From a virus: a DNA stretch of 35,597 nt. This document shows, piece by piece, positions 1-34,755 of this stretch. Numbering within the stretch: position 1 is the first letter of the stretch; each line of letters opens with the position of its first letter. The DNA is taken from the IMG/VR virus record IMGVR_UViG_3300041809_003492, positions 1 through 35,597 of that record; one strand, 5' to 3'. Both the position numbers and the translations under genes were made by a program. Under the pieces are notes generated by a model. The model had not been told where the DNA came from. It made no database searches and saw nothing but the letters and a program-made list of their open reading frames with translations.

Positions 1-1878
1 TACATACTGCGGATTCGCCGCGACGTCGCCACTGCCGTAGCCGCCCGGAGGAGTGGGGCTATAGGCGGTCGACGGGCCCACATATTTGCTCGTGTAGGCC
101 GAGCCGGTCACTTCCCACCACGCATTGTTGCCCACGTTTTCAAACGTGTTTGCGCCGGGAGTGTAACCGGTATACCAGCCGACTCCATAAGCCGTGCCAG
201 AAGTCGATGGCGTAAGCCAGAAAATGTTGTCGGCAACTTCGGCATAAAGAGCGGCCTCGCCGGTGCTGTTCTCCCAAGCAAAGGCCCCGAAACCGCCGCT
301 CCCGGTGGGACTTGCCAGAACTGTATTATGCGTCGCCTGAATCGTCTCGCCCGATGGCGGACTTCCAACCCCATTAACGATTTGCGTGGGGGAGTAGCCG
401 TTTGGCGTCGGAATCGAGAGCCAGCCCTCAATCGTATAAGCGAAGCTGCCTCCGGGGAAATAAAGGCAGGTATTCGATCCCTGATCGCCGGAGGCGCTGT
501 TATATTGATTCTCAACAGTGCCTCCGTTAAAGACAGTGCCCGCATAGGGTGACGGATCTCCGCAGTAAAGATGCAGAGAGCCGCTCGAATTGTTGAATGC
601 CAGCAGGGTGACGGCGCGAGTCACCGAGATTGCCGGATAGGCCCCCGTCGAGGCTTGCGCCAGCAGGTAGAACAGATCGCCATCAAAGTGGCCGGTGGCA
701 TGGCCTACGGTGCCTTCAGCAAAGGCTGAGTAACTGGACGAGCCAGCGAATACATTCCCATTCACGATGCACTGATCGTCCTGCCCGTCGTCGCTCCCGT
801 TGCCCTGCGCTTCTTTGAATTCACCCTCGATATAGTTATTTTCAATTTGGCAGGCGAAATTGGCGAGTGGATTTGCGATGGTCAAATTGACGGCGTAGCC
901 AGAGGAATTTATTGGGTTTATGATCGTGTTGTTATTGAAGATAAAAGAAAGACCGCTTCCGGCCCCACTCGTGGTAACGTCGGTCTCTATGACGCCACTG
1001 GAAACAAAAGCACAATGGGTGCATGACGCCGAGAGGCCGTTTCCGTAGTAGAAAAAATAGGGATACCAGCATTGACCGGAGGCCGTGCCGCAACCGATGA
1101 AATTCGCGTAGGTCGCTTGCATCATGCCGGATTCTTGATAGGTGGAATTCGAGAACCCTCCAAAGTTTCCCGATCCGACCGCGTTCTCCACGGTCACGGG
1201 GCCGGACGATGTTCCATTGAGTTTAAGAACCGCGTACGGCCCAGAATTCCCCCCATTCGTGTATCCGACCTGCCACACATAATTGCTGGTGGCGGGGGCG
1301 GATGCGAGCGAGGAATCATGGATGAGGCTTGGCGAGAAAAAGGTAAGCGTTGTTACGCTTCCCGCTGCGAAGGCATTCAACGATAGCGTTAGAGATGTGC
1401 CGGAAATGGCCAACACAATGGTCCCAGGGTACATGCCCGCGCCCGTCACAGCTTGACCGATCGCTACGCCCGTGCCAGATGCCAGGGTGACGGAATTTGA
1501 CCCACTGCTCCACGTCCCCGTGGTGGTCGCAGCTGCCGTTTGAGGATTGACCTGCCACGTGGCGGGGCATTGGTTTACCGGCCCTTGAAGATCTAAGGTG
1601 CCATTTACAATCAGGATTCCAGTCCCCGAAGAGCTTGAACACATGATTGCCGCTGCGCCGCCGCTGGCGGGCGACGTGCCCACCGTGGCCGTGTAGCCAG
1701 TCGGGATGGTTACCGTGTAACTATTCGCCAGCGTCACCGTGTCGCCACTGCCAGGGATGCCGGAAGGCGACCAGGTGGAGGTGCTGTTCCAGTTGCCTGT
1801 AGCGTTCGACGTGTAAGCCGTGGCGCACGCCTGCGCGGACGCGCAGGCGAGCGCGATCGAAACGAGTAATCGCTTCAT
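1..1878 (-). CDS. Exported probable beta-helix surface/tail-spike protein, partial (runs off left edge)
   Basis: The reading frame opens with ATG at 1878 and stays open to base 1, so at least 626 residues are present and the C-terminus is missing. GGGAG lies 7 bases before the start. The N-terminus MKRLLVSIALACASAQACA reads as a Sec signal peptide with an A-x-A cleavage site. A segment rich in Gly, Trp, Ser and Thr follows, with a GNWNSTSTW...PGSGDTVTL pattern typical of the first strand of secreted beta-rich proteins. The rest is rich in Asn, Gly and Ser with repeated hydrophobic-Asn-N patterns, and the last visible part has GDVAANPQYV, resembling the DP-F-V element of parallel beta-helix proteins. 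It is the fifth exported protein in a row after the tail-tip genes. I infer a beta-helical spike or surface protein, perhaps polysaccharide-binding. No catalytic residues can be assigned. Confidence 0.75.
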   Translation of the reverse strand, partial: MKRLLVSIALACASAQACATAYTSNATGNWNSTSTWSPSGIPGSGDTVTLANSYTVTIPTGYTATVGTSPASGGAAAIMCSSSSGTGILIVNGTLDLQGPVNQCPATWQVNPQTAAATTTGTWSSGSNSVTLASGTGVAIGQAVTGAGMYPGTIVLAISGTSLTLSLNAFAAGSVTTLTFFSPSLIHDSSLASAPATSNYVWQVGYTNGGNSGPYAVLKLNGTSSGPVTVENAVGSGNFGGFSNSTYQESGMMQATYANFIGCGTASGQCWYPYFFYYGNGLSASCTHCAFVSSGVIETDVTTSGAGSGLSFIFNNNTIINPINSSGYAVNLTIANPLANFACQIENNYIEGEFKEAQGNGSDDGQDDQCIVNGNVFAGSSSYSAFAEGTVGHATGHFDGDLFYLLAQASTGAYPAISVTRAVTLLAFNNSSGSLHLYCGDPSPYAGTVFNGGTVENQYNSASGDQGSNTCLYFPGGSFAYTIEGWLSIPTPNGYSPTQIVNGVGSPPSGETIQATHNTVLASPTGSGGFGAFAWENSTGEAALYAEVADNIFWLTPSTSGTAYGVGWYTGYTPGANTFENVGNNAWWEVTGSAYTSKYVGPSTAYSPTPPGGYGSGDVAANPQYV

Positions 1879-1935
1879 TGATTCACTCCCAATTTGTCGA
1901 AGAGAAAGTCGAAGAGAAGGCCGAGCAGCGTAGCC

Positions 1936-2691
1936 TTATTGGCAAACGAGCTGCGCGTTGATGTAGCCCGTGCCAGAGGTTGTGATCAGATCCACGCCCA
2001 CAACGTCGTTCGGCGCCACAGCCGTCGTGGTGAAATCAGTCACCGTGCTGCTTTGAATCACGGTGCCCGTCGAAAGCGAGACGCCGCTGGTCGAGATAGA
2101 ATTCGAGCCGAGCGTCGGGATCGCTGTGCCTGCAGCCACCTTCAAGAACTTCACTGTGTCCGTTCCCGCATCCGCCTGGATGGACCAGCCCGTAATGGTG
2201 CAAGCAAAGGGGACAGTGATGTAGCCAATCAGGCCCGTCGAAAGCGCGGATCCGCCAGGCTGCCCAAACTGGAAGCTGATCACGCGCGGGATGCAGGCCG
2301 ACGCCTGCGGGTTCAGCAGTTGAAACTCCGTGCCGTCATAGATCGCGTCGGCGACCGCCGTCGTCGTCAGATCGCTCGCGACAAGCGCAGCCGTCCCACA
2401 CTTGGTGATCGATATGGCAGACAGGCCATTGACTGCGAGAGTCGGCGCCGGCGCCGTGTTCGCGGCCGTAGGCAGCCACCGCACCTCGAGGCCGGCCGTC
2501 AGATAAGGCACCGGTGGCGCGAGCGTCACCGTCTGCGCCTGAGCCGTGCCGCCGCCGGCGGAATAGAGAGGCGTGGCGATATCCCGCGCGGTCTTCGCCG
2601 TGCCGGTCTGCGCGCGCAGCACTCCCGTCAGCAGCAGAAGCGCCGCCAGCGCCGTCTTAGTTGGTGCGTTCAACTTCTGCATGAAGGTCAT
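1936..2691 (-). CDS. Exported fibre-like protein with ANT/YDGT repeat module
   Basis: 251 residues. The start overlaps the end of the preceding gene by 35 bases; an alternative ATG lies three codons downstream. Residues 1-28 (MTFMQKL..TALAALLLLTGVLRAQ) read as a Sec signal peptide. Residues about 75-130 contain a fibre module with ANTAPAPTLAVNG, ITKCG, LTTTAVA and YDGTEFQLLNPQ. The same module is found in the next gene upstream (2657-3574) and in the head-region gene at 14547-14987. The C-terminal half is a beta-rich domain with many Thr and Val. A tail-fibre or adhesin subunit is the best guess. The signal peptide is unusual for a virion protein. A role as a phage-encoded secreted protein of the host cell is equally possible. 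Confidence 0.72.
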   Translation of the reverse strand: MTFMQKLNAPTKTALAALLLLTGVLRAQTGTAKTARDIATPLYSAGGGTAQAQTVTLAPPVPYLTAGLEVRWLPTAANTAPAPTLAVNGLSAISITKCGTAALVASDLTTTAVADAIYDGTEFQLLNPQASACIPRVISFQFGQPGGSALSTGLIGYITVPFACTITGWSIQADAGTDTVKFLKVAAGTAIPTLGSNSISTSGVSLSTGTVIQSSTVTDFTTTAVAPNDVVGVDLITTSGTGYINAQLVCQ

Positions 2692-3574
2692 AGGTTCCCG
2701 TCCCTGATGTGCAGGCTCCGTAGGTCGTGGTATAAGTGATGGCGCTGGCCGCGGCGGACCAGAGCGGGATCGCCGCGTCGACGTAGCCGGCGGCAGCAGA
2801 GATCGACGTGTTGGCGAGCGTCAACGGAATGGTCTGCGCCGTGTGCGCGTGCGTCGCGTCGGTCCAGCCCACCGTGGCGTACACGCTCCCCGTGCCCGTA
2901 GTGCAGAGTGCGTTCTGGTCGACGTAGAGCCGCACCAGGTAGTGGCCGGCCGCCGGCGTCGAGGCCAGAAGATTGACGCTCGATTGCGACGCCGACTGCG
3001 AGGTCACATCGGAGACACCGAGCACCGTGGGGTAGCCAATCCCGGCCGTGCTCTGTCCGTCGGCAGTGCTCGGATAACCGCCTGCCGCCCAGATGATGTT
3101 CGCGTTGTAGCCGACGACGTGCTGCGCGCCTGTGGAAACGGCCGTTTCGCCGGGCGTCGACACGCCTACGCCATCTGTCATCGTTCCGGCCCCGGCCCCA
3201 CAGGCCGAGGCCTGCGGATTCTGCAGTTCCATGTCGGTCCCGTCGTAGACGAACACCGCGACCGCGGTTGTAGTCAGATCGCTTGCCGCTACCGCCGATT
3301 GGCCGCATTTAGTGATGGTTTTTGCCGCAACGCCGCAGTATGCCAGCGTGGGCGTCGTGGTCGTGTTGGCGTGCCCCGGCAGCACCTTGATCACTTCGCC
3401 GGTGCTGATGGCAATGCAACTGTTCACCGTGGCGACCAGCGTATTGACCGCGCCGGTGTCCGCCGCGTAATTGGGCGCGAGGTTGTTCTCGGGATAGTTC
3501 GCGTTCGCCGTCTGCGCCACGACAGGTACCGAAAGCAACGCGAGAGCAAAAACTGAAAGCAAAAGCCTTTTCAT
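2657..3574 (-). CDS. Exported fibre-like protein, two modules
   Basis: 305 residues. The ATG overlaps the upstream stop as ATGA, with GGAGGAG just before it, which fixes the start well. Residues 1-20 (MKRLLLSVFALALLSVPVVA) form a clear signal peptide cut before QTAN. Residues about 36-122 carry the ANT...YDGT...LQNPQ module, including AADTGAVN, HANTTTTPTLAYCG, ITKCG and YDGTDMELQNPQ. Residues about 187-305 are paralogous to the C-terminal domain of the adjacent upstream protein: SDVTSQSASQSSVNLL here against SDVTNQTASQGTVNLV there. The protein therefore combines a fibre module with a second beta-sandwich-like domain. Likely a receptor-binding or surface protein; the partner is unknown. Confidence 0.75.
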   Translation of the reverse strand: MKRLLLSVFALALLSVPVVAQTANANYPENNLAPNYAADTGAVNTLVATVNSCIAISTGEVIKVLPGHANTTTTPTLAYCGVAAKTITKCGQSAVAASDLTTTAVAVFVYDGTDMELQNPQASACGAGAGTMTDGVGVSTPGETAVSTGAQHVVGYNANIIWAAGGYPSTADGQSTAGIGYPTVLGVSDVTSQSASQSSVNLLASTPAAGHYLVRLYVDQNALCTTGTGSVYATVGWTDATHAHTAQTIPLTLANTSISAAAGYVDAAIPLWSAAASAITYTTTYGACTSGTGTYDLHAEVERTN

Positions 3575-4419
3575 TGGATCTCCTCCACGGCGATGTGCGC
3601 GTCGTAACTCGCTGGCCCACCGGTCGCGCAGGAGCCGGTCAGGGTTGAGGTGTAAGTGACGGCGGTTGCAGCAAGAACATAAATCGGCACCACGCCTTGG
3701 ATCGAGCCGGTGACCGGCGCCTGCGAGGGCCCGATAGTGAGCGCCACGCTTGAGACCGAGCGCGCGCTCACGGGGTCGACCCAGTTGAAGGTGAAATGGA
3801 CGGCAACAGTGCCGCTGCCGCAAACCGAGTGCTGGTTCGCGTAATAGCTGATGCGATATTTCCCCGTCGCCGGCGCCGTGCCCACCAGGTTCACAGTGCC
3901 CTGCGAGGCGGTCTGATTCGTCACGTCGGAGTCCCCGACGCTCGCGCCCGCGACCGTGCACACGCCGACGCAGCCATTCACCGACTGCACATATGCGATC
4001 ATCGGCAGCGGCGGGATGCTGGGAAGGAAGTTATCCAGGCTACAAACCCCGGCCGTACACCAGGAATTGCTGTAGGTCGGTTGCAAACACGAGTAACCAG
4101 GCCCGAGAACCTGCGACCCGTTCTGCGTGCTCAATATCGCCTGAAAGCAGACGTTTGCCGGGATGGTCAGCGCCGTATCGGGCACGCCCGTCAAAGTGAA
4201 CGCGCCATTCTGAACGCTAACTGTCAGCGGCGTGATCGACGCCTGGCCGCCTCCCGGCCGGTGGTAACTGGCCGGCTGGCCAGCGGCCGTCACAGGAGCG
4301 AGCGTCAGCGTCCCGTACGCCGGATTCAGACCATCGTAGAGATAGGACGCCTGGACCGTCACCGTCTGCGCGCCGGCCGCACAGCAAATCGCCAAAATCA
4401 ACCACGCAATCTTTTTCAT
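3571..4419 (-). CDS. Exported fibre-like protein sharing domains with both neighbours
   Basis: 282 residues from ATG 4419, chosen because AAGGGG lies 7 bases upstream and a signal peptide (MKKIAWLILAICCAAGA, cut before Q18) follows directly. Residues about 18-140 resemble the N-terminal domain of the large spike encoded just upstream. Shared features are TVSVQNGAFTL versus TVTAGAFSI, CFQAIL versus CYAVTI, VLGPGYSCLQP versus a GCVQP element, and an NFLPSIPP or SFIPPGP end. Residues about 163-282 resemble the C-terminal domain of the downstream gene 2657-3574. The gene thus links the two neighbours as a module hybrid. Function is inferred only from position: tail-tip or surface protein. Confidence 0.75.
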   Translation of the reverse strand: MKKIAWLILAICCAAGAQTVTVQASYLYDGLNPAYGTLTLAPVTAAGQPASYHRPGGGQASITPLTVSVQNGAFTLTGVPDTALTIPANVCFQAILSTQNGSQVLGPGYSCLQPTYSNSWCTAGVCSLDNFLPSIPPLPMIAYVQSVNGCVGVCTVAGASVGDSDVTNQTASQGTVNLVGTAPATGKYRISYYANQHSVCGSGTVAVHFTFNWVDPVSARSVSSVALTIGPSQAPVTGSIQGVVPIYVLAATAVTYTSTLTGSCATGGPASYDAHIAVEEIQ

Positions 4420-4445
4420 CCGCGATCCCCTTGTGCTCTGCATGG

Positions 4446-7331
4446 TTAGCAGTGGGTTACAATCCCATTTACGCTGGCGAAGCTCGAGCTGGGGCTCCCG
4501 CTGCAAGACACAGAGGCCGTGTCGTTCACATAGGGCACGTTCCCGATATTCACCAGGCCATTCCACGAGCCGCTCGTGATGCTTCCGGCGGTATATCCTG
4601 CAGTGTCGATGTTCCCGTAGAGGATCGGCGCGCTGCCGCCCCCGGAATTGCTCGCCTTCAGGATGGTCCACCCGCTGTTATAGTTTTGGGCGGCGATGTT
4701 GAGCATGACCGCATTGCCGACGCCAAAGTTCGTGGCAGACGTGTTGGTTACTGAAACGATCGAGGGCGACGATCCCCAGGGACAACTGACATAAAAAGCC
4801 GTGCTATCGATCCACAGCGGGGCGCCGCGCCAATTGGTAATCGACAGCATTGAGCTTGAGGGAATAGTGCCACTGCCGCAGCTCGTTCCCCCGATCATTG
4901 AATTTCTAATCGACAACTGCGTCTGCGAACTCGGGCCCGCGTCGCCACTGCCGTCAATGGTCCAGGGGCCGTCCGTCACCACGTCATTCACGATGCCGCC
5001 GTTAATTTGCGTGCCCATTCCGATGGCCACGCTCGTGTACGCCGTGGGATAGGTCGTCGTGTTTTGAATGCTTACGTTGTCGAGTTCGAAATTGCGGGCC
5101 GCCAGAATGCCCGTGACGCTTCCGGTCGTCGCGGTGAGTTTGAGATGCAAGTCTTTGACCGCGGGCCTGTAATTTGCGCCGGTCCCGTCGGCGATGATCA
5201 GCGCGTCTCCGGTTCCGGTCATCTGCAGGTTTGCCCCGTTGCCCTCCAGCGTAACCGGGCCGGCCAGTCCGAGACCGGATGAAATGCTGCAGGTTCTGGC
5301 GGTAGCTCCGCCCGCGGCGTTTGTCGGAGGCGGAAGGTTAAGGACAATCGGACCATTCGTGGCCTGCAGCGACGCGCCATAATAGAGCGCCGAATTAAAC
5401 ACCGCGTGGTCGTCCGTCGAACCGTCGCAGGCCGCAGACCAGGGAGGATCGGTGATGTAAAGATTCAGCCCCGTTCCGGCGGAGTTAATGGTTGGGCTCG
5501 CGGCAAAGTTGGCGAGCAGATACTGCGATTGCGCGGGGTTCGTCATGATCGCAGCAGCTACCGATTCCGCAAAAGCGGCATATCCGAAGAGATTGGGATG
5601 CAGGTTCCCTTCGCCGTCAGAAGCCATGGCGCCATGGTCGTTGGAATAGGTCCATCCATAGCTCGCCCCGTTTGCCGGGCCTGAGAACATTGCCCAATTG
5701 TTGATCCACGGTAGTGGAACACTGAGACCCGGATTTGAGTTGCTCTCTGCCAGCGCTTGGAGAGCCGCCACATAGGGCAGCATCACGGCGGGAGTTTGGT
5801 TGCCGCTTGGGTTCCCCGAGACTAGAGCAACATCGGCGCCGGTAGCCAGCAATGCAGAAATGACAGTCTGCATGTTGGCGCTAAACGTAGAAACGGCGAT
5901 CGAGGTCCCCCAGTCGTTGATCCCAGCTTCGTAGACCGTAAGATCACAGCCAAGAGTAGCCCACGGCAACGAATAGCCAGCCCCGTACGGATTCGACCGG
6001 TCGGCAAAATTAGCGGAAGTTCCACCGCCATTTCCCATCAGCTCAACGAGCACCATATGCGAGGTCGAGTCATAGCCCTCTTCACCCCACAGATCGACCG
6101 GACCGCCGCTCGACCATGTGACATTGAGGGTGTGCGCGCCGACCGTGCTTGCGGTCAAAGTCAAAACCCCGATTCCCGGGCTGCCTGATGTGCTTTGCGT
6201 GGTTGCAGTACCGCCGTCGATATTCGCGCTGATGACGCCCGCGCTGCTGTTCTTCAGATAGAAGATACGAAAAGTGTTGACGTTCTCCGTGGGCGTAAAG
6301 GCCAGGGTTCCGGCGCTCGAAGCCGTCATCGCATAGCCGCCTGGCACTTGATTTGACGGGTTTCCAGCCCACGCGGAGTTTACGCTAAGGCGCGAATCCG
6401 CGCTCAGTAATTGGTAGGGAGATATATAGAGCGAACTCGCGGAGCCAAACCAGTTGGCGGCTTGCGCTTGAATATGATATTGCGATTGCAGGATGCGCGA
6501 AAGTTGCAGCGCGGGAGCATAGAAGACCTGATTGCCAGATGGAAGGCTCCAAAAGCCCCGCTGCGTTGAGTCTCCCGCCATGCAGACGCGGGCGTTTGCG
6601 GATTGAGCCAACACAGCGGCAAGCGCCGTCGCCCAGTGATAATAGTTTCCATCACTGCCAACGCCGCTTGTTGCCGCCACAGGCGCGCAGGACGACGCAT
6701 TGGTGCAATCGAGGCTATAAGTGCCGGGCGCTGGATTGCCTAGCAGGTTCGAAACGGCCGCCGCGGCCGTGGTTGCCCCGGTGCAGCCTCCGCTGATTGA
6801 GCCGCCGCCGGAACCGCACCCCCCGGTGCCCGGATTTCCCTGCGGCCCTTGCGGCCCGGTTGCTCCTGCGGGCCCTGCAACCACCTCGGCAGTCGCGGGC
6901 CCCGGAGGTATGAAGCTATCGAAGCTCCAGGTCGAGCCCGAGGGCTGCACGCATCCGTAGGACCCGCCTGCGTTCACGTGGATGCCATCGTTCGCCAGGC
7001 CCGCACCGAGCAGCACTTTGCCGGTCAGATTGTCGAGAATCGTGACGGCATAGCAGGGATACTGCGGATCGCTGAGCGATGTGTCCAGCGTAGAGATTGA
7101 GAACGCCCCGGCCGTCACCGTCGCCGTGATGGGGACGCCAAGGTACTGTCCGCCGGCCGTGCCGATCCGCGCGGACGTGAGCAGCTGCCAGTAAATGGTG
7201 CCGTTCGCGACCAGGTGCCCCGTGCCTCCTGTGCTCGAAGCCGAGACGGTCGTATATTGCGCAACTGCCGCAGGCGCAAAAAGTGCACACAAGAGCAACA
7301 GCGCCACGATGGCGTGGATCCGAAAACGCAT
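4446..7331 (-). CDS. Exported tailspike-like protein: collagen-like + SGNH esterase + beta-helix
   Basis: 961 residues from ATG 7331, chosen for the AAGGAG site 5 bases upstream and the signal peptide MRFRIHAIVALLLLCALFAPAAVA, cut before Q25. Domains in order: a beta-rich N-domain (about 26-148) shared with the next gene; a short collagen-like GPAGATGPQGPQGNPG stretch (153-168) and Gly-rich linker; an SGNH/GDSL hydrolase with block I AGDS (Ser255), a block III-like GIND (470-473) and a block V-like GNLHP (His578); and a C-terminal part from about 624 starting DPPWSAACDGSTDD, typical of pectate-lyase-like beta-helices. A beta-sandwich segment (about 331-412) interrupts the hydrolase. The usual block V Asp three residues before His is Gly here, with Asp at 572. 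I infer an enzyme that deacetylates or cleaves surface polysaccharide. Confidence 0.82.
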   Translation of the reverse strand: MRFRIHAIVALLLLCALFAPAAVAQYTTVSASSTGGTGHLVANGTIYWQLLTSARIGTAGGQYLGVPITATVTAGAFSISTLDTSLSDPQYPCYAVTILDNLTGKVLLGAGLANDGIHVNAGGSYGCVQPSGSTWSFDSFIPPGPATAEVVAGPAGATGPQGPQGNPGTGGCGSGGGSISGGCTGATTAAAAVSNLLGNPAPGTYSLDCTNASSCAPVAATSGVGSDGNYYHWATALAAVLAQSANARVCMAGDSTQRGFWSLPSGNQVFYAPALQLSRILQSQYHIQAQAANWFGSASSLYISPYQLLSADSRLSVNSAWAGNPSNQVPGGYAMTASSAGTLAFTPTENVNTFRIFYLKNSSAGVISANIDGGTATTQSTSGSPGIGVLTLTASTVGAHTLNVTWSSGGPVDLWGEEGYDSTSHMVLVELMGNGGGTSANFADRSNPYGAGYSLPWATLGCDLTVYEAGINDWGTSIAVSTFSANMQTVISALLATGADVALVSGNPSGNQTPAVMLPYVAALQALAESNSNPGLSVPLPWINNWAMFSGPANGASYGWTYSNDHGAMASDGEGNLHPNLFGYAAFAESVAAAIMTNPAQSQYLLANFAASPTINSAGTGLNLYITDPPWSAACDGSTDDHAVFNSALYYGASLQATNGPIVLNLPPPTNAAGGATARTCSISSGLGLAGPVTLEGNGANLQMTGTGDALIIADGTGANYRPAVKDLHLKLTATTGSVTGILAARNFELDNVSIQNTTTYPTAYTSVAIGMGTQINGGIVNDVVTDGPWTIDGSGDAGPSSQTQLSIRNSMIGGTSCGSGTIPSSSMLSITNWRGAPLWIDSTAFYVSCPWGSSPSIVSVTNTSATNFGVGNAVMLNIAAQNYNSGWTILKASNSGGGSAPILYGNIDTAGYTAGSITSGSWNGLVNIGNVPYVNDTASVSCSGSPSSSFASVNGIVTHC

Positions 7332-7347: not shown

Positions 7348-7899
7348 CTAGCCCCAAACCAGGGCAATATCGTTGAGGGTTTCAACCCAGTTGAAGCCGG
7401 AATCGGTGGGAAAGTAATACGTCTGATCGCTGGCCGTGTAGCGGCGATTCGATGGCCGCTGCAGATTCGCCATGCGGCTTTCGAGTTTCAGCGTGATCGC
7501 GATCGTGTCCGGAGAGATCGGCACCACCGGCTGATCGACCGTTCCCACAAAGAGCGGGTATGGCGCTCCGAGGATCCCGCCATTCTGGAAAACCGCGAAC
7601 CAGACGGTGACCGGCGCGCCCAGCTGGATCTCGAGCAGGCAATCGTTGAGCAACGTCGCATCGATGCCGGAAAGCGTGATCGTGGTGCCGTCCGCCTTTA
7701 CGTCGCTGCCCTCCGTCACGTCGCCGATCTGGCCGAGCGAGCCCACGCCAAGATAGGTATTGCCGCCATAGAGCAGCGAGCCCACGCCCGACCAGACATG
7801 CTGGACCCCGGTCGCGAGCGTGAGATCGACCAGAATGCACGGCGCCGCCAGGTTGGACGTGACGGCGGTGATCATCGGGCTCGGAAGATCGCGGGGCAT
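7348..7899 (-). CDS. Tail-tip/baseplate-hub-like protein
   Basis: 183 residues, starting on the base directly after the TAG of the preceding gene. The protein has an N-terminal domain that could form a beta-barrel (YGGNTYLGVG, ITLSGIDATL, VTVWFAVF, LFVGTVDQP) and a C-terminal signature ESRMANLQRPSNRRYTASDQ, followed by FPTDSGFNWVE. This arrangement is familiar from tail-tip or hub-associated proteins of siphophages and gene transfer agents (DUF2163-like), which sit below the distal tail protein. Its place between a distal-tail-like protein and the fibre cluster supports a structural role in the tail tip. It lacks a signal peptide, unlike the five genes that follow. Confidence 0.62.
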   Translation of the reverse strand: MPRDLPSPMITAVTSNLAAPCILVDLTLATGVQHVWSGVGSLLYGGNTYLGVGSLGQIGDVTEGSDVKADGTTITLSGIDATLLNDCLLEIQLGAPVTVWFAVFQNGGILGAPYPLFVGTVDQPVVPISPDTIAITLKLESRMANLQRPSNRRYTASDQTYYFPTDSGFNWVETLNDIALVWG

Positions 7900-8547
7900 C
7901 TAGCGCACCTCAATGCACTGAAAGCTGATCGTGGTGAGCCGTTGCGGGCTCGCGTGAATCGGCCGCCGGTTCGAAGCCAGGCGGAAAAGACCCTGCGGCG
8001 CAGCCAGAACGACCTCGGTTCCATCCGCCGGCGTCTCGCGCAACGACGGCCAGACGGTCAGCGTGGCGTTTCCGCCCGAGTCGGAGTTCACGATTTCGCA
8101 AACGCGATGCAGCCGGTAACCGATCTGGAACTGGTCGCCGGGCAGCAAAAGCCTGAACGCACTGGCAGCCCATCCCCGTGTCACCAGGGAGGTCGTAGAG
8201 GGCAGGTTGGCGCTGCCGCTGGTCGCAACTACAGGCGTGCCCGCGGCGGAGCCCTGAGGCCCGTTTGCGGCCCGCGGATCGCCAAGCTGGAAAACGTTGG
8301 CCTTGCCGCGCAGCTCGGCCAGGAAGCCCTCCCAAGCCCAGGCCTGCGCGGCTCTCAACGGCGGCAGGGTGATCGTCGCATCCCAAAAGTCCGCGCCTGG
8401 CCAGGGCTGCACCTGCTGCACCTTGGTAAACGGCGACTCGACGACAGCAACCGAATCGCTCATGCCCAGCTCGATCTCGGCAGGCCCGGGAGTCGAAGGC
8501 ATCGCGCACAGGTTATAGCTGTTGCTGCCAATCGTGATGGTGATCAT
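7900..8547 (-). CDS. Distal tail-like protein
   Basis: 215 residues from ATG 8547. A TTG codon sits directly before it, and the tape-measure stop is at 8551-8553. The N-terminal part (MITITIGSNSYNL..PSTPGPAEIELGMSDSVAVVESPFTKVQQ) and the motif FWDATITLPPLRAAQAWAWEGFL are followed by a loop with FQLGDP and a C-terminal domain containing LLPGDQFQIGYRLHRVCE. The position right after the tape measure is where Dit or lambda gpM-like proteins are encoded. I therefore assign a distal-tail or tail-tip role by synteny and general layout. Family membership is not proven by a diagnostic motif. Confidence 0.6.
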   Translation of the reverse strand: MITITIGSNSYNLCAMPSTPGPAEIELGMSDSVAVVESPFTKVQQVQPWPGADFWDATITLPPLRAAQAWAWEGFLAELRGKANVFQLGDPRAANGPQGSAAGTPVVATSGSANLPSTTSLVTRGWAASAFRLLLPGDQFQIGYRLHRVCEIVNSDSGGNATLTVWPSLRETPADGTEVVLAAPQGLFRLASNRRPIHASPQRLTTISFQCIEVR

Positions 8548-8550
8548 CAA

Positions 8551-10556: not shown

Positions 10557-10907
10557 TTACCAGTCCTTCTCGGCGGCCTGCTCTCGAGCCGCCTCCCGAT
10601 CTTGTGCAGATTTGATCCGAGTGGACAAAGCCGCACACGCGGCCTGATTTTTCTTTGCCTTCGGCGGATCATTAATACACTTCGCCCAGCGCTGCGCGGC
10701 CGCATCGCCAAGTTCCCTTTGAATGATTTCGTACTGCAGCTCCATATTCTGGGCAGCGAGCTGATCGTTATCTTCCTGCATTTTACGATTCAGATCATCC
10801 CATTGGCGTTGACTTTCCGCGCTCCTTTGCGCGTTATCACATGCTGCTAAGGGTAGCGCGAGCAGCAGCACTGCAGTAAAAACGAGTAGCGATTGTCTTC
10901 GTTTCAT
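10557..10907 (-). CDS. Predicted lipoprotein with coiled coil, moron-like
   Basis: 116 residues. The N-terminus MKRRQSLLVFTAVLLLALPLAAC is a lipoprotein signal peptide with an LAAC lipobox (Cys23). The mature part is short, charged and alpha-helical (SAESQRQWDDLNRKMQEDNDQLAAQNMELQ), consistent with a coiled coil, with two more Cys in the C-terminal half. Such a protein would sit on the inner or outer membrane, not in the virion. Its place between an HK97 gp10-type gene and the tape measure is odd. A strong terminator follows it and a weak promoter-like sequence precedes it, so it looks like a moron. Roles such as superinfection exclusion or an Rz1-like spanin are guesses. Confidence 0.75.
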   Translation of the reverse strand: MKRRQSLLVFTAVLLLALPLAACDNAQRSAESQRQWDDLNRKMQEDNDQLAAQNMELQYEIIQRELGDAAAQRWAKCINDPPKAKKNQAACAALSTRIKSAQDREAAREQAAEKDW

Positions 10908-14546: not shown

Positions 14547-14987
14547 CTAGACGATCTGAAATTGCGTGCCGTCATAGACGACCTGCATGATCTGGCCGGC
14601 GGCAATTTCCCCGCCCGCAAGCGCCGTGGTTCCGCTCTTAGTAATCGCCTTGGCAGCGCCACCATTGACGGCCAGGGTTGAGGCGGCAGTGTTGGCGTGA
14701 AGCGCTTTGAAAAGCACGCGGCTACCGGCCGCAAGCGTCGGAGCCGGCGAAAACGCGACCACATACGCGTTCGCGGCGCCGGTGTCGGCGGCGTAAATCG
14801 CGGCGCTCTGCTGCAGCTGAGCGGGTTGCACCGCCGAATTCGCAATGCCCTGGAGGGCGTTCAGCAGGGCGTCGAGAGCAATGAAGGCTTTGGCAAGGAG
14901 CTGGACGGCGGCGCCCCAGGGCAGTTGGTGCGATTCATCGCCAGGGAGAACGAAACTTTGAGTTGCGGTAACAACCTGGTTTGCCAT
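14547..14987 (-). CDS. Fibre-module protein encoded in the head region
   Basis: 146 residues from ATG 14987; AAAGG lies 5 bases upstream, which favours this start over an ATG five codons earlier. The N-terminal third is helical (VQLLAKAFIALDALLNALQGIANSAVQ) and could trimerise. The rest is one fibre module: YAADTGAANAYVVAFSPAPTL, HANTAASTLAVNG, ITKSG and VVYDGTQFQIV. The module matches those in 2657-3574 and 1936-2691, but here there is no signal peptide. Located between the capsid/decoration genes and the connector, it may be a head fibre or decoration. Confidence 0.72.
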   Translation of the reverse strand: MANQVVTATQSFVLPGDESHQLPWGAAVQLLAKAFIALDALLNALQGIANSAVQPAQLQQSAAIYAADTGAANAYVVAFSPAPTLAAGSRVLFKALHANTAASTLAVNGGAAKAITKSGTTALAGGEIAAGQIMQVVYDGTQFQIV

Positions 14988-15023
14988 GACGACCTTTCCC
15001 AAAACGGAGATTGAAGAGTGAAG

Positions 15024-15055
15024 CTTTCCGGGCCGCGGCTTCGCGACCCGGAAAG
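15024..15055 (-). terminator. Long hairpin after decoration-type gene
   Basis: A 9-base-pair stem (15024-15032 with 15047-15055) continues, after one C/A mismatch, into a further 4-base-pair stem with a 4-base GCTT loop. On the minus strand a pyrimidine-rich CTTCACTCTTC run follows. It is a likely partial terminator or mRNA-stabilising hairpin between 15068-15589 and the next gene. Confidence 0.65.
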
Positions 15056-15067
15056 GCGGAGCAGCGT

Positions 15068-15589
15068 TTACGCCTGGACCGTGGCCGACTGGTCGCCGGT
15101 GAAGCGGCCGCCAGAAAGCACTGCATAGGCTGCGAGCAGCTGCGCGGTGCTGCCGAGAGAACCGACAGCGATGTCGAGCTCGAGGTAGGGCCCGACGCCG
15201 GCAGCCAGCAGATCCGCAGCATCAACTTCGATGATGTAGAACGCGTTGGCCGCGTCCGCGGACGGCGTGTAGCCGGTTGCCGCCTGCGGAAAGTTGCCAT
15301 CGCCCGTCGAGCTGTTGTTGGCGAGCACGTCGTAGGGCCCGCTCGATGCCTCCTGTTTGAAGAGGCGATAGGCGATTGCGGTGCCGCTGCCACCGGTCTC
15401 AGCCGCAAAGGCCTTGAGGGTGATGGCGCCGATGGGGCCGCCGGCGGCGCCGAAGCCAAGCAGGATTGACGCGTGAGCGTAATCCGCCATGCTGAAGCGG
15501 GTAGCCGTAACGGCCGCACCCGCGCTGACGGGCACGATCAACGGTGCGACATGCCCATCCTGAGAAAGCCAAAAACCTTTTGCACTCAT
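15068..15589 (-). CDS. Probable head decoration or minor capsid protein
   Basis: 173 residues; AGGAG lies 7 bases before ATG. The chain has no signal peptide or membrane segment. It is rich in Ala, Gly and Thr and looks all-beta: GFWLSQDGHVAPLIVPVSAG, FSMADYAHASILLGFGAAGG, AFYIIEVDAADLLAAGVG, YLELDIAVGSL, AAYAVLSGGRF. It directly follows the capsid gene, where decoration proteins are often encoded. Hairpins stand on both sides of it, as if its mRNA level were set separately. The decoration role is inferred from position; no family motif is visible. Confidence 0.62.
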   Translation of the reverse strand: MSAKGFWLSQDGHVAPLIVPVSAGAAVTATRFSMADYAHASILLGFGAAGGPIGAITLKAFAAETGGSGTAIAYRLFKQEASSGPYDVLANNSSTGDGNFPQAATGYTPSADAANAFYIIEVDAADLLAAGVGPYLELDIAVGSLGSTAQLLAAYAVLSGGRFTGDQSATVQA

Positions 15590-32569: not shown

Positions 32570-32989
32570 TCATCTCCTCGCCGGCGGCCGGGGACCCGAG
32601 GGATTGAAGCTTGGGCGCGGCCGCCCGAGATAGAGGTTGTGGATCGCCCAGGGCAGATTGCTCGCGACGTCGATCACGGGAACGGCATGCGCCAGGCGCG
32701 CGTAACGATGGCGTTCAAGTTGGCGTACCGCGAACCAATCAAGCCCCACAGCGCCGCCGCTGTAGGCCGCGAGCGTCCAAGTGCGGTTGACGACGAAGCC
32801 CGGCAGGAACATTTCATGGTCGCCCTGCGCGAGCGCCCGGCGCGTGGAGTAGGTGTCGAGCGCGCGCGAGCCCGCGTCGACCGTGAGCAACGCCCACTCC
32901 GCGCGATCCAGATGCGGCCTGGGCGCCTCGGGCAGCTGCGCGGCCGCGCGCAGTGCGAGCGTGAATGCCAGCGCGAGCGCAGCCTTCAT
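32570..32989 (-). CDS. Small exported or membrane protein
   Basis: 139 residues from ATG 32989, overlapping the ParB-like stop as ATGA. The N-terminus MKAALALAFTLALRAAAQ is a signal peptide. The mature part contains LLTVDAGSRALDTYSTRRAL, HEMFLPGF, TLAAYSGGAVGLDWFAVRQLERH and PVIDVASNLPWAIHNLYLG, the layout of a family of small exported or membrane proteins I associate with Acidobacteriota genomes (a D-xx-ST-RR...G--E--P pattern). It is a plausible marker of the host and possibly a recent cellular acquisition. Function unknown. Confidence 0.7.
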   Translation of the reverse strand: MKAALALAFTLALRAAAQLPEAPRPHLDRAEWALLTVDAGSRALDTYSTRRALAQGDHEMFLPGFVVNRTWTLAAYSGGAVGLDWFAVRQLERHRYARLAHAVPVIDVASNLPWAIHNLYLGRPRPSFNPSGPRPPARR

Positions 32990-34755
32990 TTGCGGCCCGC
33001 TTTCTTTGCCGGCGACTTCTTCGCGGCCTTTTTCGCGGGCTTCTTGGCCGCCTTGGGCGCTGCCGGTTTTTTCCAGGGATCCGGCCCGGTCCAGCCGAGA
33101 CGCTTCACGCTGGCCAGGAAGTCGGCGCGGCCATTCGAAGCTTCGCCCCACTCGTTCGCCGCAAGCTCGCGCAGCGAAACCAGCGCGAAGGCCTTGGCGA
33201 ATTCAGCGCTGTCGATCTTCGCGACCTGGAGCGTCTTGCGGAATCCAGGCAGAACCGCCTCGGCGATCTTCACTTCGCAAAAGCGATAGAGCGAGGCCTG
33301 CGCCAGCGCGCGCACAGCATCGGCAGGCAGCTTCGTGACGCCCTTGACGGCCTCAGAAGCCACCGCCATACGCAGCTTGCTCTCTTCGATCGCCGCCGCC
33401 TTGCGCTTCGCACGCTGCTCAGCCTCGGCCTTCTGATCCCTGTTGTCTGTTCCCTGTTCCCTGGTTTTTTCGTACTCCTTCTTGTGCGCCTTGCAGCCAC
33501 AAGCAATGCAGACCAGCAACGTCTCCCCGGGCTTGCGCAGCTTTTTGTTGCCGCCCACGTAACCGCGGTTGCCGTCATCGCTCCAGTCGACAGTGACGCC
33601 CGGGCGCACGTTGGGGCAGGATCCCTTTTTCGCCTGCACCCACTGGCCCTGGCGCAGGATCTTTTTAGGATCGGCCGAGGTTGCCATCTTGCCGTTGGCC
33701 GCGAGATCGTTGAAGCAAGTCTTCGGCTTCACGCTCGAGGGTTTCCAGCTCAATCGCGGCACCAGGCGCGGCGGTTTCGCATCGGGATCCGCGCCGGCCT
33801 TGCGCAACTGGATCTCGACGAAGGCTTGGCGCTTGAGTTCGAAGCAGCCGCCGTCGGCGCAGGTCGCTTCCTCGATATCGAGATCGGAGAACAGCGCCGT
33901 GTTGGCCTTCGTGTTGCTGGGACAATCCGCGCAGGCGCCCGCATCGGGCAGATAGCCCGAGGCGTCGAGATCCCACGGTGCGCGAGAGAGCTTGCGGCCC
34001 GCATGCTCCTCGATGTGCTGCTTCAGATCGAGAACCGATTGCGGCTCCCAGTAGCGGCCGAAATAACGATTCGCGTTACCGTCGCCCAGCGATTTCGCCG
34101 ATGCCGCGATGACTTTATCGACGGGCGTTTTCACGCCGGCCTGGGGATCGAGGCACCATTTCAGGTGCTTGTCCTGGTCGTCAACGCCAAGCCGCGCGAG
34201 AAGCAGCGCGTGCTCAATCGTGATCAGCCGGCCGTTGAGCGCATCGCGCGACCAGACGCCGAGCGAGCGGAGCTTTAAGCGCTTCGTCACATAGGCGAGA
34301 TCTTTGCCCACACGAAGGGAGACCGCCGGGATGCCCGTCATCCGGTCGAGCAATGCGCCGAACGCTTCGGCCTCTTCCATGGGAGGCACGTCTTCGCGCT
34401 GCAGGTTATCAATCAAGCCAACTTCGCGCGCCTGGTCGTCGTCAAGCTCGCGGATCTCGCACGGCGCAACATGCAATCCGGCAAGCGTTGCGGCCCTGTA
34501 GCGGCGGTGGCCGCAGACGATCTCGAAGCGGGGACCGTCGTTCCAACCTTCCGGACGTTCGAGCTCGCGCACCACGAGCGGGTTCAGGATCCCGTGCTCG
34601 CCGATTGAGTCAGCAAGTTCGTGGAGCGCGACCTGGTCGTAGGTCTTGCGCGCGTTCGATTCAGAGGGCAGGAGGCAGTCGAGGCCGAGCGTCTCGATGC
34701 GCGCAGCGCCGTTCTGTTCCCTGTTCCCTGCTCCCTCAGTCCCTGCTTTTTTCAT
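32986..34755 (-). CDS. ParB-like protein with zinc-type middle domain and lysine-rich tail
   Basis: 589 residues, ATG overlapping the upstream stop. Residues about 20-120 form the ParB/Srx-type domain: LLPSESNARKTYD, LADSIGEHGILNPLVV, CGHRRYRAAT (82-90), and LIDNLQREDVPPMEEAEAF. A helix-turn-helix follows (IPAVSLRVGKDLAYVTKRLKLRSLG), then a Cys-containing middle domain (ACADCPSNTKANTALFSDLDIEEATCADGGCF) typical of plasmid/phage ParB relatives, and a further C-terminal region. The last 30 residues are a PAKKAAKKSPAKKAG-type basic tail. No ParA is in the window. It may act in CTPase-type DNA binding, segregation or regulation. Confidence 0.85.
   Translation of the reverse strand: MKKAGTEGAGNREQNGAARIETLGLDCLLPSESNARKTYDQVALHELADSIGEHGILNPLVVRELERPEGWNDGPRFEIVCGHRRYRAATLAGLHVAPCEIRELDDDQAREVGLIDNLQREDVPPMEEAEAFGALLDRMTGIPAVSLRVGKDLAYVTKRLKLRSLGVWSRDALNGRLITIEHALLLARLGVDDQDKHLKWCLDPQAGVKTPVDKVIAASAKSLGDGNANRYFGRYWEPQSVLDLKQHIEEHAGRKLSRAPWDLDASGYLPDAGACADCPSNTKANTALFSDLDIEEATCADGGCFELKRQAFVEIQLRKAGADPDAKPPRLVPRLSWKPSSVKPKTCFNDLAANGKMATSADPKKILRQGQWVQAKKGSCPNVRPGVTVDWSDDGNRGYVGGNKKLRKPGETLLVCIACGCKAHKKEYEKTREQGTDNRDQKAEAEQRAKRKAAAIEESKLRMAVASEAVKGVTKLPADAVRALAQASLYRFCEVKIAEAVLPGFRKTLQVAKIDSAEFAKAFALVSLRELAANEWGEASNGRADFLASVKRLGWTGPDPWKKPAAPKAAKKPAKKAAKKSPAKKAGRK
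33437..33463. repeat. CCCTGTTCCCTG repeat inside ParB-like gene, copy 1
   Basis: Three partly degenerate ccctgtt-type units (TCCCTGTTGTCTGTTCCCTG then TTCCCTGG) lie in the coding sequence. On the minus strand they encode REQGTDNRDQ. They match copy 2 at 34712-34750. Confidence 0.7.
34712..34750. repeat. CCCTGTTCCCTG repeat at ParB-like start, copy 2
   Basis: Bases 34712-34750 contain ccctg units with tt/ct spacers and end in a T run. On the minus strand they encode the first residues, TEGAGNREQNG, including NREQ as in copy 1. Because they lie at the very start of the gene they may be a recently inserted leader. Confidence 0.7.

Follow-up and report, generated by a model that had tools for sequence, protein, structure and literature searches.

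Predicted Sec export of side tail fibres in phages of Acidobacteriota, with a possible attachment to virions at lysis

The assembly of tailed phages is taught as a cytoplasmic process. The siphovirus considered here, a 35.6-kb IMG/VR virus record analysed over its whole length (35,597 nucleotides; hereafter the window), carries five fibre-like open reading frames (ORFs) directly after the gene for a gpL-like tail-tip hub protein, and each begins with what resembles a cleavable secretory signal peptide. This raises the question of whether the fibres of such a phage leave the cytoplasm and, if they do, in what capacity they would act. The original prediction held that the entire receptor-binding cluster is destined for export, as a new maturation route, as a surface-display or decoy system on the host cell, or as fibres co-opted as secreted adhesins. 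The window keeps a full structural gene set in HK97-type order on the minus strand, and its contig end falls inside the fifth fibre-like ORF:

22589-20817, minus strand: terminase, HK97-type structural order
20069-18291, minus strand: portal, HK97-type structural order
18291-17131, minus strand: protease, HK97-type structural order
17098-15686, minus strand: major head protein, followed by neck and tail genes
10488-8551, minus strand: tape measure, tail region
7900..8550, minus strand: distal tail protein (Dit), no signal; phrog_1302, E=2e-34
7348..7899, minus strand: tail-tip hub N-terminal protein, gpL-like, no signal; phrog_2048, E=1.5e-42

The host is very probably an acidobacterium, judging from relatives of the hub protein (57% identity) in two Acidobacteriaceae MAGs and from the presence of the N-terminal fibre domain in one Acidobacteriota prophage; both findings back the link to Acidobacteriota that had been proposed beforehand. 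Away from the structural genes, the window also encodes a 589-aa ParB-like protein (32986-34755, minus strand; phrog_4715, E=1e-29).

The fibre genes, which sit in the tail-tip operon, and a fibre-module ORF that serves as a within-genome control are composed as follows:

4446..7331, minus strand: fibre gene 1, 961 aa; the signal peptide is followed by the N-terminal domain, a short collagen-like stretch, an SGNH/GDSL-like hydrolase region and the C-terminal region
7260..7331, minus strand: predicted signal peptide of fibre gene 1, MRFRIHAIVALLLLCALFAPAAVA before QY; strong ribosome binding site
6861..7259, minus strand: N-terminal fibre domain of fibre gene 1, tail-attachment-type fold as modelled
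3571..4419, minus strand: fibre gene 2, 282 aa; signal peptide 4369-4419, N-terminal domain 3991-4368 with two Cys pairs
2657..3574, minus strand: fibre gene 3, 305 aa; signal peptide 3515-3574, 'VYDGT' fibre domain with 4 Cys, C-terminal head
1936..2691, minus strand: fibre gene 4, 251 aa; signal peptide 2611-2691, 'VYDGT' fibre domain with 2 Cys; phrog_35197, E=7.5e-6
1..1878, minus strand: fibre/spike-like gene 5, at least 626 aa, cut by the contig end; signal peptide 1822-1878, no recognised domain
14547-15221, minus strand: fibre-module ORF of the head region; 'VYDGT' domain, no signal, no Cys in the domain

The hydrolase region of fibre gene 1 matches Lipase_GDSL_2 at E=5e-6, below the Pfam cut-off, and the signal peptide of this gene is conserved in the related locus L002 with five amino acid changes. 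Fibre genes 2 and 3 have a C-terminal head in common, the head of fibre gene 4 recurs at the end of the L002 homologue of fibre 1, and gene 5 has no Pfam or PHROG match. After removal of the predicted signals, the complete fibres 1-4 hold 14, 8, 6 and 4 cysteines.

Signals were scored with a weight matrix derived from 39 E. coli signal peptides, supplemented with h-region and n-region terms. With this E. coli-based matrix, the starts at 7331, 4419, 3574, 2691 and 1878 score 15.1, 8.5, 10.3, 9.8 and 9.7, while 20,000 random proteins give a 99th percentile of 5.3 and a 99.9th of 8.7; shuffles of the same composition match the observed scores in 0, 0.9, 0.2, 1.6 and 0.3% of cases, in the same order. 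The same scorer gives at most 1.9 for the hub, Dit, tape measure, major head protein, protease, portal and terminase, and among lambda controls it gives 8.4 for Lom and values below zero for J and Stf. The expectation that all five ORFs open with a signal of the Sec/signal peptidase I type is thereby upheld, all five scoring well above the random-protein null, as is the lack of signals in the two tail-tip genes before the cluster and in the head-region fibre-module ORF.

Each of the five starts is an ATG that leads into a basic n-region, a hydrophobic core and an A-x-A-like site. Cleavage is predicted at AVA/QY (7331), AGA/QT (4419), VVA/QT (3574, where the scorer favours a site two residues further on), LRA/QT (2691) and either ACA/TA or AQA/CA (1878). 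Good ribosome binding sites had been claimed for four of the starts; those at 7331 (AAGGAG) and 3574 (GGAGGAG) are indeed strong, whereas that at 1878 is only fair and that at 4419 moderate. The site at 2691 is weak, and the ORF shares 35 nt with the gene before it. Translation could skip the signals only from in-frame GTG and TTG codons, which have no Shine-Dalgarno match. On these sequence criteria, the products of the five window genes are predicted Sec-exported proteins with type I signal peptides. A lipoprotein type and the Tat route were also considered and were rejected, a canonical lipobox and a twin-arginine motif each being found in none of the five.

Two further ORFs of the window have starts of a related kind. 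A small ORF upstream of the tape measure gene (10557-10907, minus strand) begins with MKRRQSLLVFTAVLLLALPLAACDNA, has a lipobox-like LAAC and is likely a phage lipoprotein, and a 139-aa ORF away from the tail region (32570-32989, minus strand) has a possible signal peptide, MKAALALAFTLALRA before AAQ, with a score of 7.0.

Profile searches with the N-terminal domain (~130 aa) of the 7331 gene returned 31 and, after two more collection scans, 61 distinct ORFs, all of them in tail loci of related phages, which were found with the gpL-like hub gene (7348..7899) as anchor. A hydrophobic signal lies ahead of the domain in 48 of the 61 (including L009, L118 and L134, whose clear signals the scorer missed and which were assigned by eye), and in the other 13 an initiator Met with its own ribosome binding site directly precedes the domain (e.g. 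MPTGYTQVS). Ahead of the domain, the best 10-residue hydropathy reaches 2.0 or more in 48/48 signalled and no more than 0.7 in 13/13 unsignalled ORFs. Signalled and unsignalled fibres occupy the same slot, from tape measure to Dit, in different phages; in L009 and L021 the signalled fibre is flanked by the hub and gpK-like genes, and the window fibre likewise follows the hub. No record contains both forms, though several contain two signalled copies. The signalled fibre of L124 is collinear over ~755 aa with the unsignalled fibres of L030 and L035, including the GDS and HPT motifs of an SGNH-like hydrolase. For 688 of 832 BLAST-linked pairs of signalled proteins, the N-part alone is common, and the C-part is variable. 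An unsignalled gpJ-like protein is retained in all siphophage relatives that are complete enough to show it, so the signalled fibres would not be the sole receptor binders.

Within the window, the profile finds genes 1 and 2 only, and the attachment-type N-domain is absent from genes 3, 4 and 5. Fibres 1, 3 and 4 have no direct homologues in 50,697 phage records, a hand-composed N-domain query had no match among phage records, and a viral-contig search with fibre 1 gave no confirmed match.

Several neighbouring observations concern the same loci. Further consecutive signalled genes occur at L003:15537-18722 and L014:2433-9131, some encoding proteins without the N-terminal fibre domain. The L024 record has a second, frame-broken copy of the domain (G021:C1:63472-63838, minus strand) ~45 kb from the intact unsignalled fibre gene of a prophage. 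A divergent signalled fibre-like protein in the Acidobacteriota genome G430 (L086:1438-3249; MRKYILALLLCAASLSYA before QSS, with a WCT..CSLD Cys pair) adjoins small tail-like ORFs. Unlike lambda J, the gpJ-like proteins at L004:11036-14929, L014:11093-15004 and elsewhere start with a long hydrophobic stretch (MSKAIxGAAMLxGA...), which has a signal-like score in several cases and no clear c-region.

The cysteines of these proteins vary together with the signals. All 37 alignable signalled domains contain a VCY...CVQP Cys pair, whereas none of the 13 unsignalled ones does, the first Cys position being Gly, Ala or Tyr in all of the latter; 11 divergent signalled ORFs are without the canonical first Cys column, mostly because the domain there cannot be aligned. 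A second pair, WCT...CNFD, is found in 34 signalled and no unsignalled domains. Of 46 complete signalled proteins, 40 have an even mature Cys count (binomial p=3e-7), as against 3 of 9 unsignalled ones, and cysteines number 18.1 per 1000 residues in signalled versus 8.8 in unsignalled proteins (Mann-Whitney P=2e-5). The tree-corrected correlation between signal and Cys is not significant (six changes in all, two starred pairs; some divergent domains were left out of the trees), a test without power because independent gains or losses of the signal on well-supported branches are few.

A second, unrelated fibre domain ('VYDGT') follows the same trend, with 4, 2, 2 and 2 Cys in signalled members (window 3574 and 2691, L004 and L019) and 0, 1, 0, 1 and 0 in unsignalled ones, the head-region ORF of the window included. 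The positions of its Cys pairs differ between the window and L004/L019, a sign that the pairs may have arisen separately. In 311 phage records, mainly of Pseudomonas phages, homologues of this domain belong to virion or tail-fibre proteins, and its relatives in the sampled Pseudomonas and E. coli phage fibres have no signal and few cysteines. The original prediction had allowed that related phages might carry the same domains without signals and that the signals might then be start-site errors; unsignalled forms do exist (13 ORFs), but the two forms differ in cysteines, which argues against such errors. Export itself gains from this comparison, as relatives have kept the signals, which go together with paired cysteines and even cysteine counts, a pattern that a start-site error would not yield. 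It is therefore highly probable, as far as sequences can tell, that the fibre proteins are exported and adapted to an oxidising compartment.

A domain-only AlphaFold2 model of the N-terminal domain (pLDDT 84, pTM 0.80) was compared with 996 PDB chains. The closest is the cyanophage A-1(L) tail fibre, residues 2-104 (8kec; Z 9.7, rmsd 2.2 A over 93 residues), followed by a 94-residue Ur-lambda tail-tip chain (Z 7.7), which is the N-terminal 94 residues of Stf (9e7m chain T), and by a Bxb1 tail-tip chain (Z 7.6). At E<=0.001, Foldseek with the same model found nothing in the PDB but did find four predicted viral proteins, a minor tail protein and a collagen-like protein among them. Sequence matches are weak (phage_tail_N at E=0.05 in one member; 11 bits to lambda Stf 8-56), and the sequence profile of the domain returned unrelated weak matches only from the PDB. 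In a model of mature fibre 2 the head part is poorly modelled, and a Foldseek search with it gave no usable match. Because a constant attachment part with variable heads is the layout of receptor-binding proteins, we read the N-terminal domain as a putative tail-attachment part. The initiator Met in one form, and signal peptidase in the other, would bring it to the start of the mature protein.

Signalled fibre genes are also found in phages that have been grown. Five acidobacterial phage isolates, Tunturi 1, 2 and 4 among them, are in culture (Demina et al. 2025, PMC11924767). In the podoviruses Tunturi 1 and 2, the genes gp12, gp13, gp14 (annotated as tail spike or pectin lyase), gp16 and gp17 (annotated as virion structural protein) are signalled, with 20, 10, 20, 1 and 32-34 mature Cys; the signal of gp14, whose best start lies 11 codons inside the annotated start, was assigned partly by inspection. 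The siphovirus Tunturi 4 has signalled gp113 and gp114 (8 and 20 Cys; the signal of gp113, score 4.7, likewise assigned partly by inspection), which adjoin an unsignalled fibre, gp111. No signalled fibre genes were found in the first 50 kb each of Tunturi 3 and Tunturi 5. Outside its annotated fibre genes, Tunturi 3 has a 170-aa ORF with a signal-like start, MNRRQLFKGAAALVAATVLPLPALA (L145, minus strand, 7352-7864 in reverse-strand coordinates). The main text of PMC11924767 makes no mention of signal peptides, nor of 'mass spectrometry' or 'structural protein'.

The explanation that we prefer, and whose prospects we rate as even, is that exported side fibres dock on virions at lysis. It builds on what the sequences hold, namely the signals, the cysteine co-variation, the synteny and the equivalence of the domain in its two forms. 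The five genes would give side-tail-fibre proteins bound for export through Sec. Signal peptidase I would then cut the presequence and expose the N-terminal domain at the mature N-terminus, as it stands after the initiator Met in unsignalled relatives, and disulphides would form in the oxidising periplasm, as the paired cysteines and even counts lead us to infer. Virions lacking fibres would meanwhile assemble in the usual way in the cytoplasm, and once lysis breaks the envelope, the periplasmic fibres may dock on the tails through the N-terminal domain. Docking would account for the retention of an attachment domain, for the single slot that exported and cytoplasmic forms fill without ever co-occurring, and for the signals on the annotated spike genes of the podoviruses Tunturi 1 and 2. 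The case for this step is weaker still for genes 3, 4 and 5, because the attachment-type domain is absent there. Late attachment is physically plausible, since P22 and T4 particles are known to take up fibres or spikes in vitro; no tailed phage is known to add exported fibres after lysis, and the literature searched contained no such case. More generally, and a little more tentatively, tailed phages of Acidobacteriota might be built in two compartments, with cytoplasmic heads and tails and with Sec-exported, disulphide-bonded fibres attached during lysis through an Stf-type domain, one fibre family having switched between routes while gaining or losing Cys pairs.

Export without incorporation into the virion is a possible reading, if a somewhat doubtful one. 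The fibres would then be free periplasmic or extracellular proteins that bind or modify receptors and mask or alter surface polysaccharide, so as to prevent superinfection or to stop progeny from adsorbing anew to the dying cell and its debris. Such a role would suit the export signature, which is real, the presence of a gpJ-like tip protein in any case, the tandem arrangement of signalled genes (window, L014, L003) and the SGNH-hydrolase-like regions of several members, and lambda lom, a signalled gene between J and stf, provides a precedent for an exported product in a tail-fibre cluster. However, the conserved part is a tail-attachment-type N-domain, which a free protein would not need, the genes lie inside the structural operon, and no phage in this set combines the two forms, which would be expected of forms that share a single role. 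The retained attachment-type domain thus favours the new maturation route over surface display or a decoy among the alternatives first put forward.

Readings that dispense with phage-directed export fare considerably worse. That the starts are wrong or the hydrophobic stretches non-functional, so that the fibres are ordinary cytoplasmic virion proteins, is very unlikely; the weak ribosome binding site at 2691, the related fibres without signal and the signal-free lambda Stf would fit, whereas the signal-bypassing starts lack a Shine-Dalgarno match, paired cysteines and even counts go with the signal in both fibre domain families, and signals also occur in annotated genes of cultured phages. 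We give still less credence to capture of the fibre genes by the host as secreted adhesins, with the contig representing domesticated prophage remnants. Relatives do occur in Acidobacteriaceae MAGs and in one prophage, but the N-domain is found in just 3 of 396 Acidobacteriota genomes, at least two of these being prophage or tail loci, as against dozens of viral contigs; for this reason co-option as adhesins, part of the original prediction, is disfavoured. The window, moreover, has a full structural gene set, and similar signalled genes are present in plaque-forming phages.

If export of the receptor-binding proteins is borne out, either assembly would have a second compartment, the fibres being attached at lysis, or exported phage proteins that act on receptors would form a widespread class. 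Both outcomes bear on host recognition by acidobacterial phages in acidic soils. The cultured Tunturi 1, 2 and 4 make the export question directly testable. For annotation, a signal on a fibre gene need not mean a mis-called start.

We found no report of signal-bearing side fibres in the literature searched, which covers the field incompletely. Signal-bearing endolysins such as the fOg44 lysin and those of the J5a clade are exported by the host Sec route (PMC8878798); they are thus Sec-exported phage proteins like the window fibres are predicted to be, but they are lysis enzymes, not fibres (PMC8878798). Lambda Lom resembles the window genes in being a signal-bearing product of the same tail-fibre cluster, yet it is an outer-membrane beta-barrel, whereas the window products are fibres, with an attachment-type domain in genes 1 and 2. 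The 'VYDGT' domain of window genes 3 and 4 also occurs in Pbunavirus and other tail-fibre 'virion proteins', which differ in having no signal and only 0-3.1 Cys per 1000 residues in four sampled domain-bearing fibres. The N-domain of the cyanophage A-1(L) tail fibre (8kec) is the best structural match, yet no sequence relationship with it was detected. Lambda Stf (Pfam phage_tail_N) is like the N-domain fibres in modelled fold (Z 7.7), in the N-terminal position of the domain and in being encoded in a tail operon, and both combine a conserved N-part and a variable C-part alongside a J-type central tip protein. Stf, however, starts at its Met, with no signal and 2 Cys, whereas the window fibres have a Sec signal before the domain and paired cysteines; since all five window genes carry signals, the window fibres would be a variant of the lambda Stf-type side tail fibre and not a typical member.
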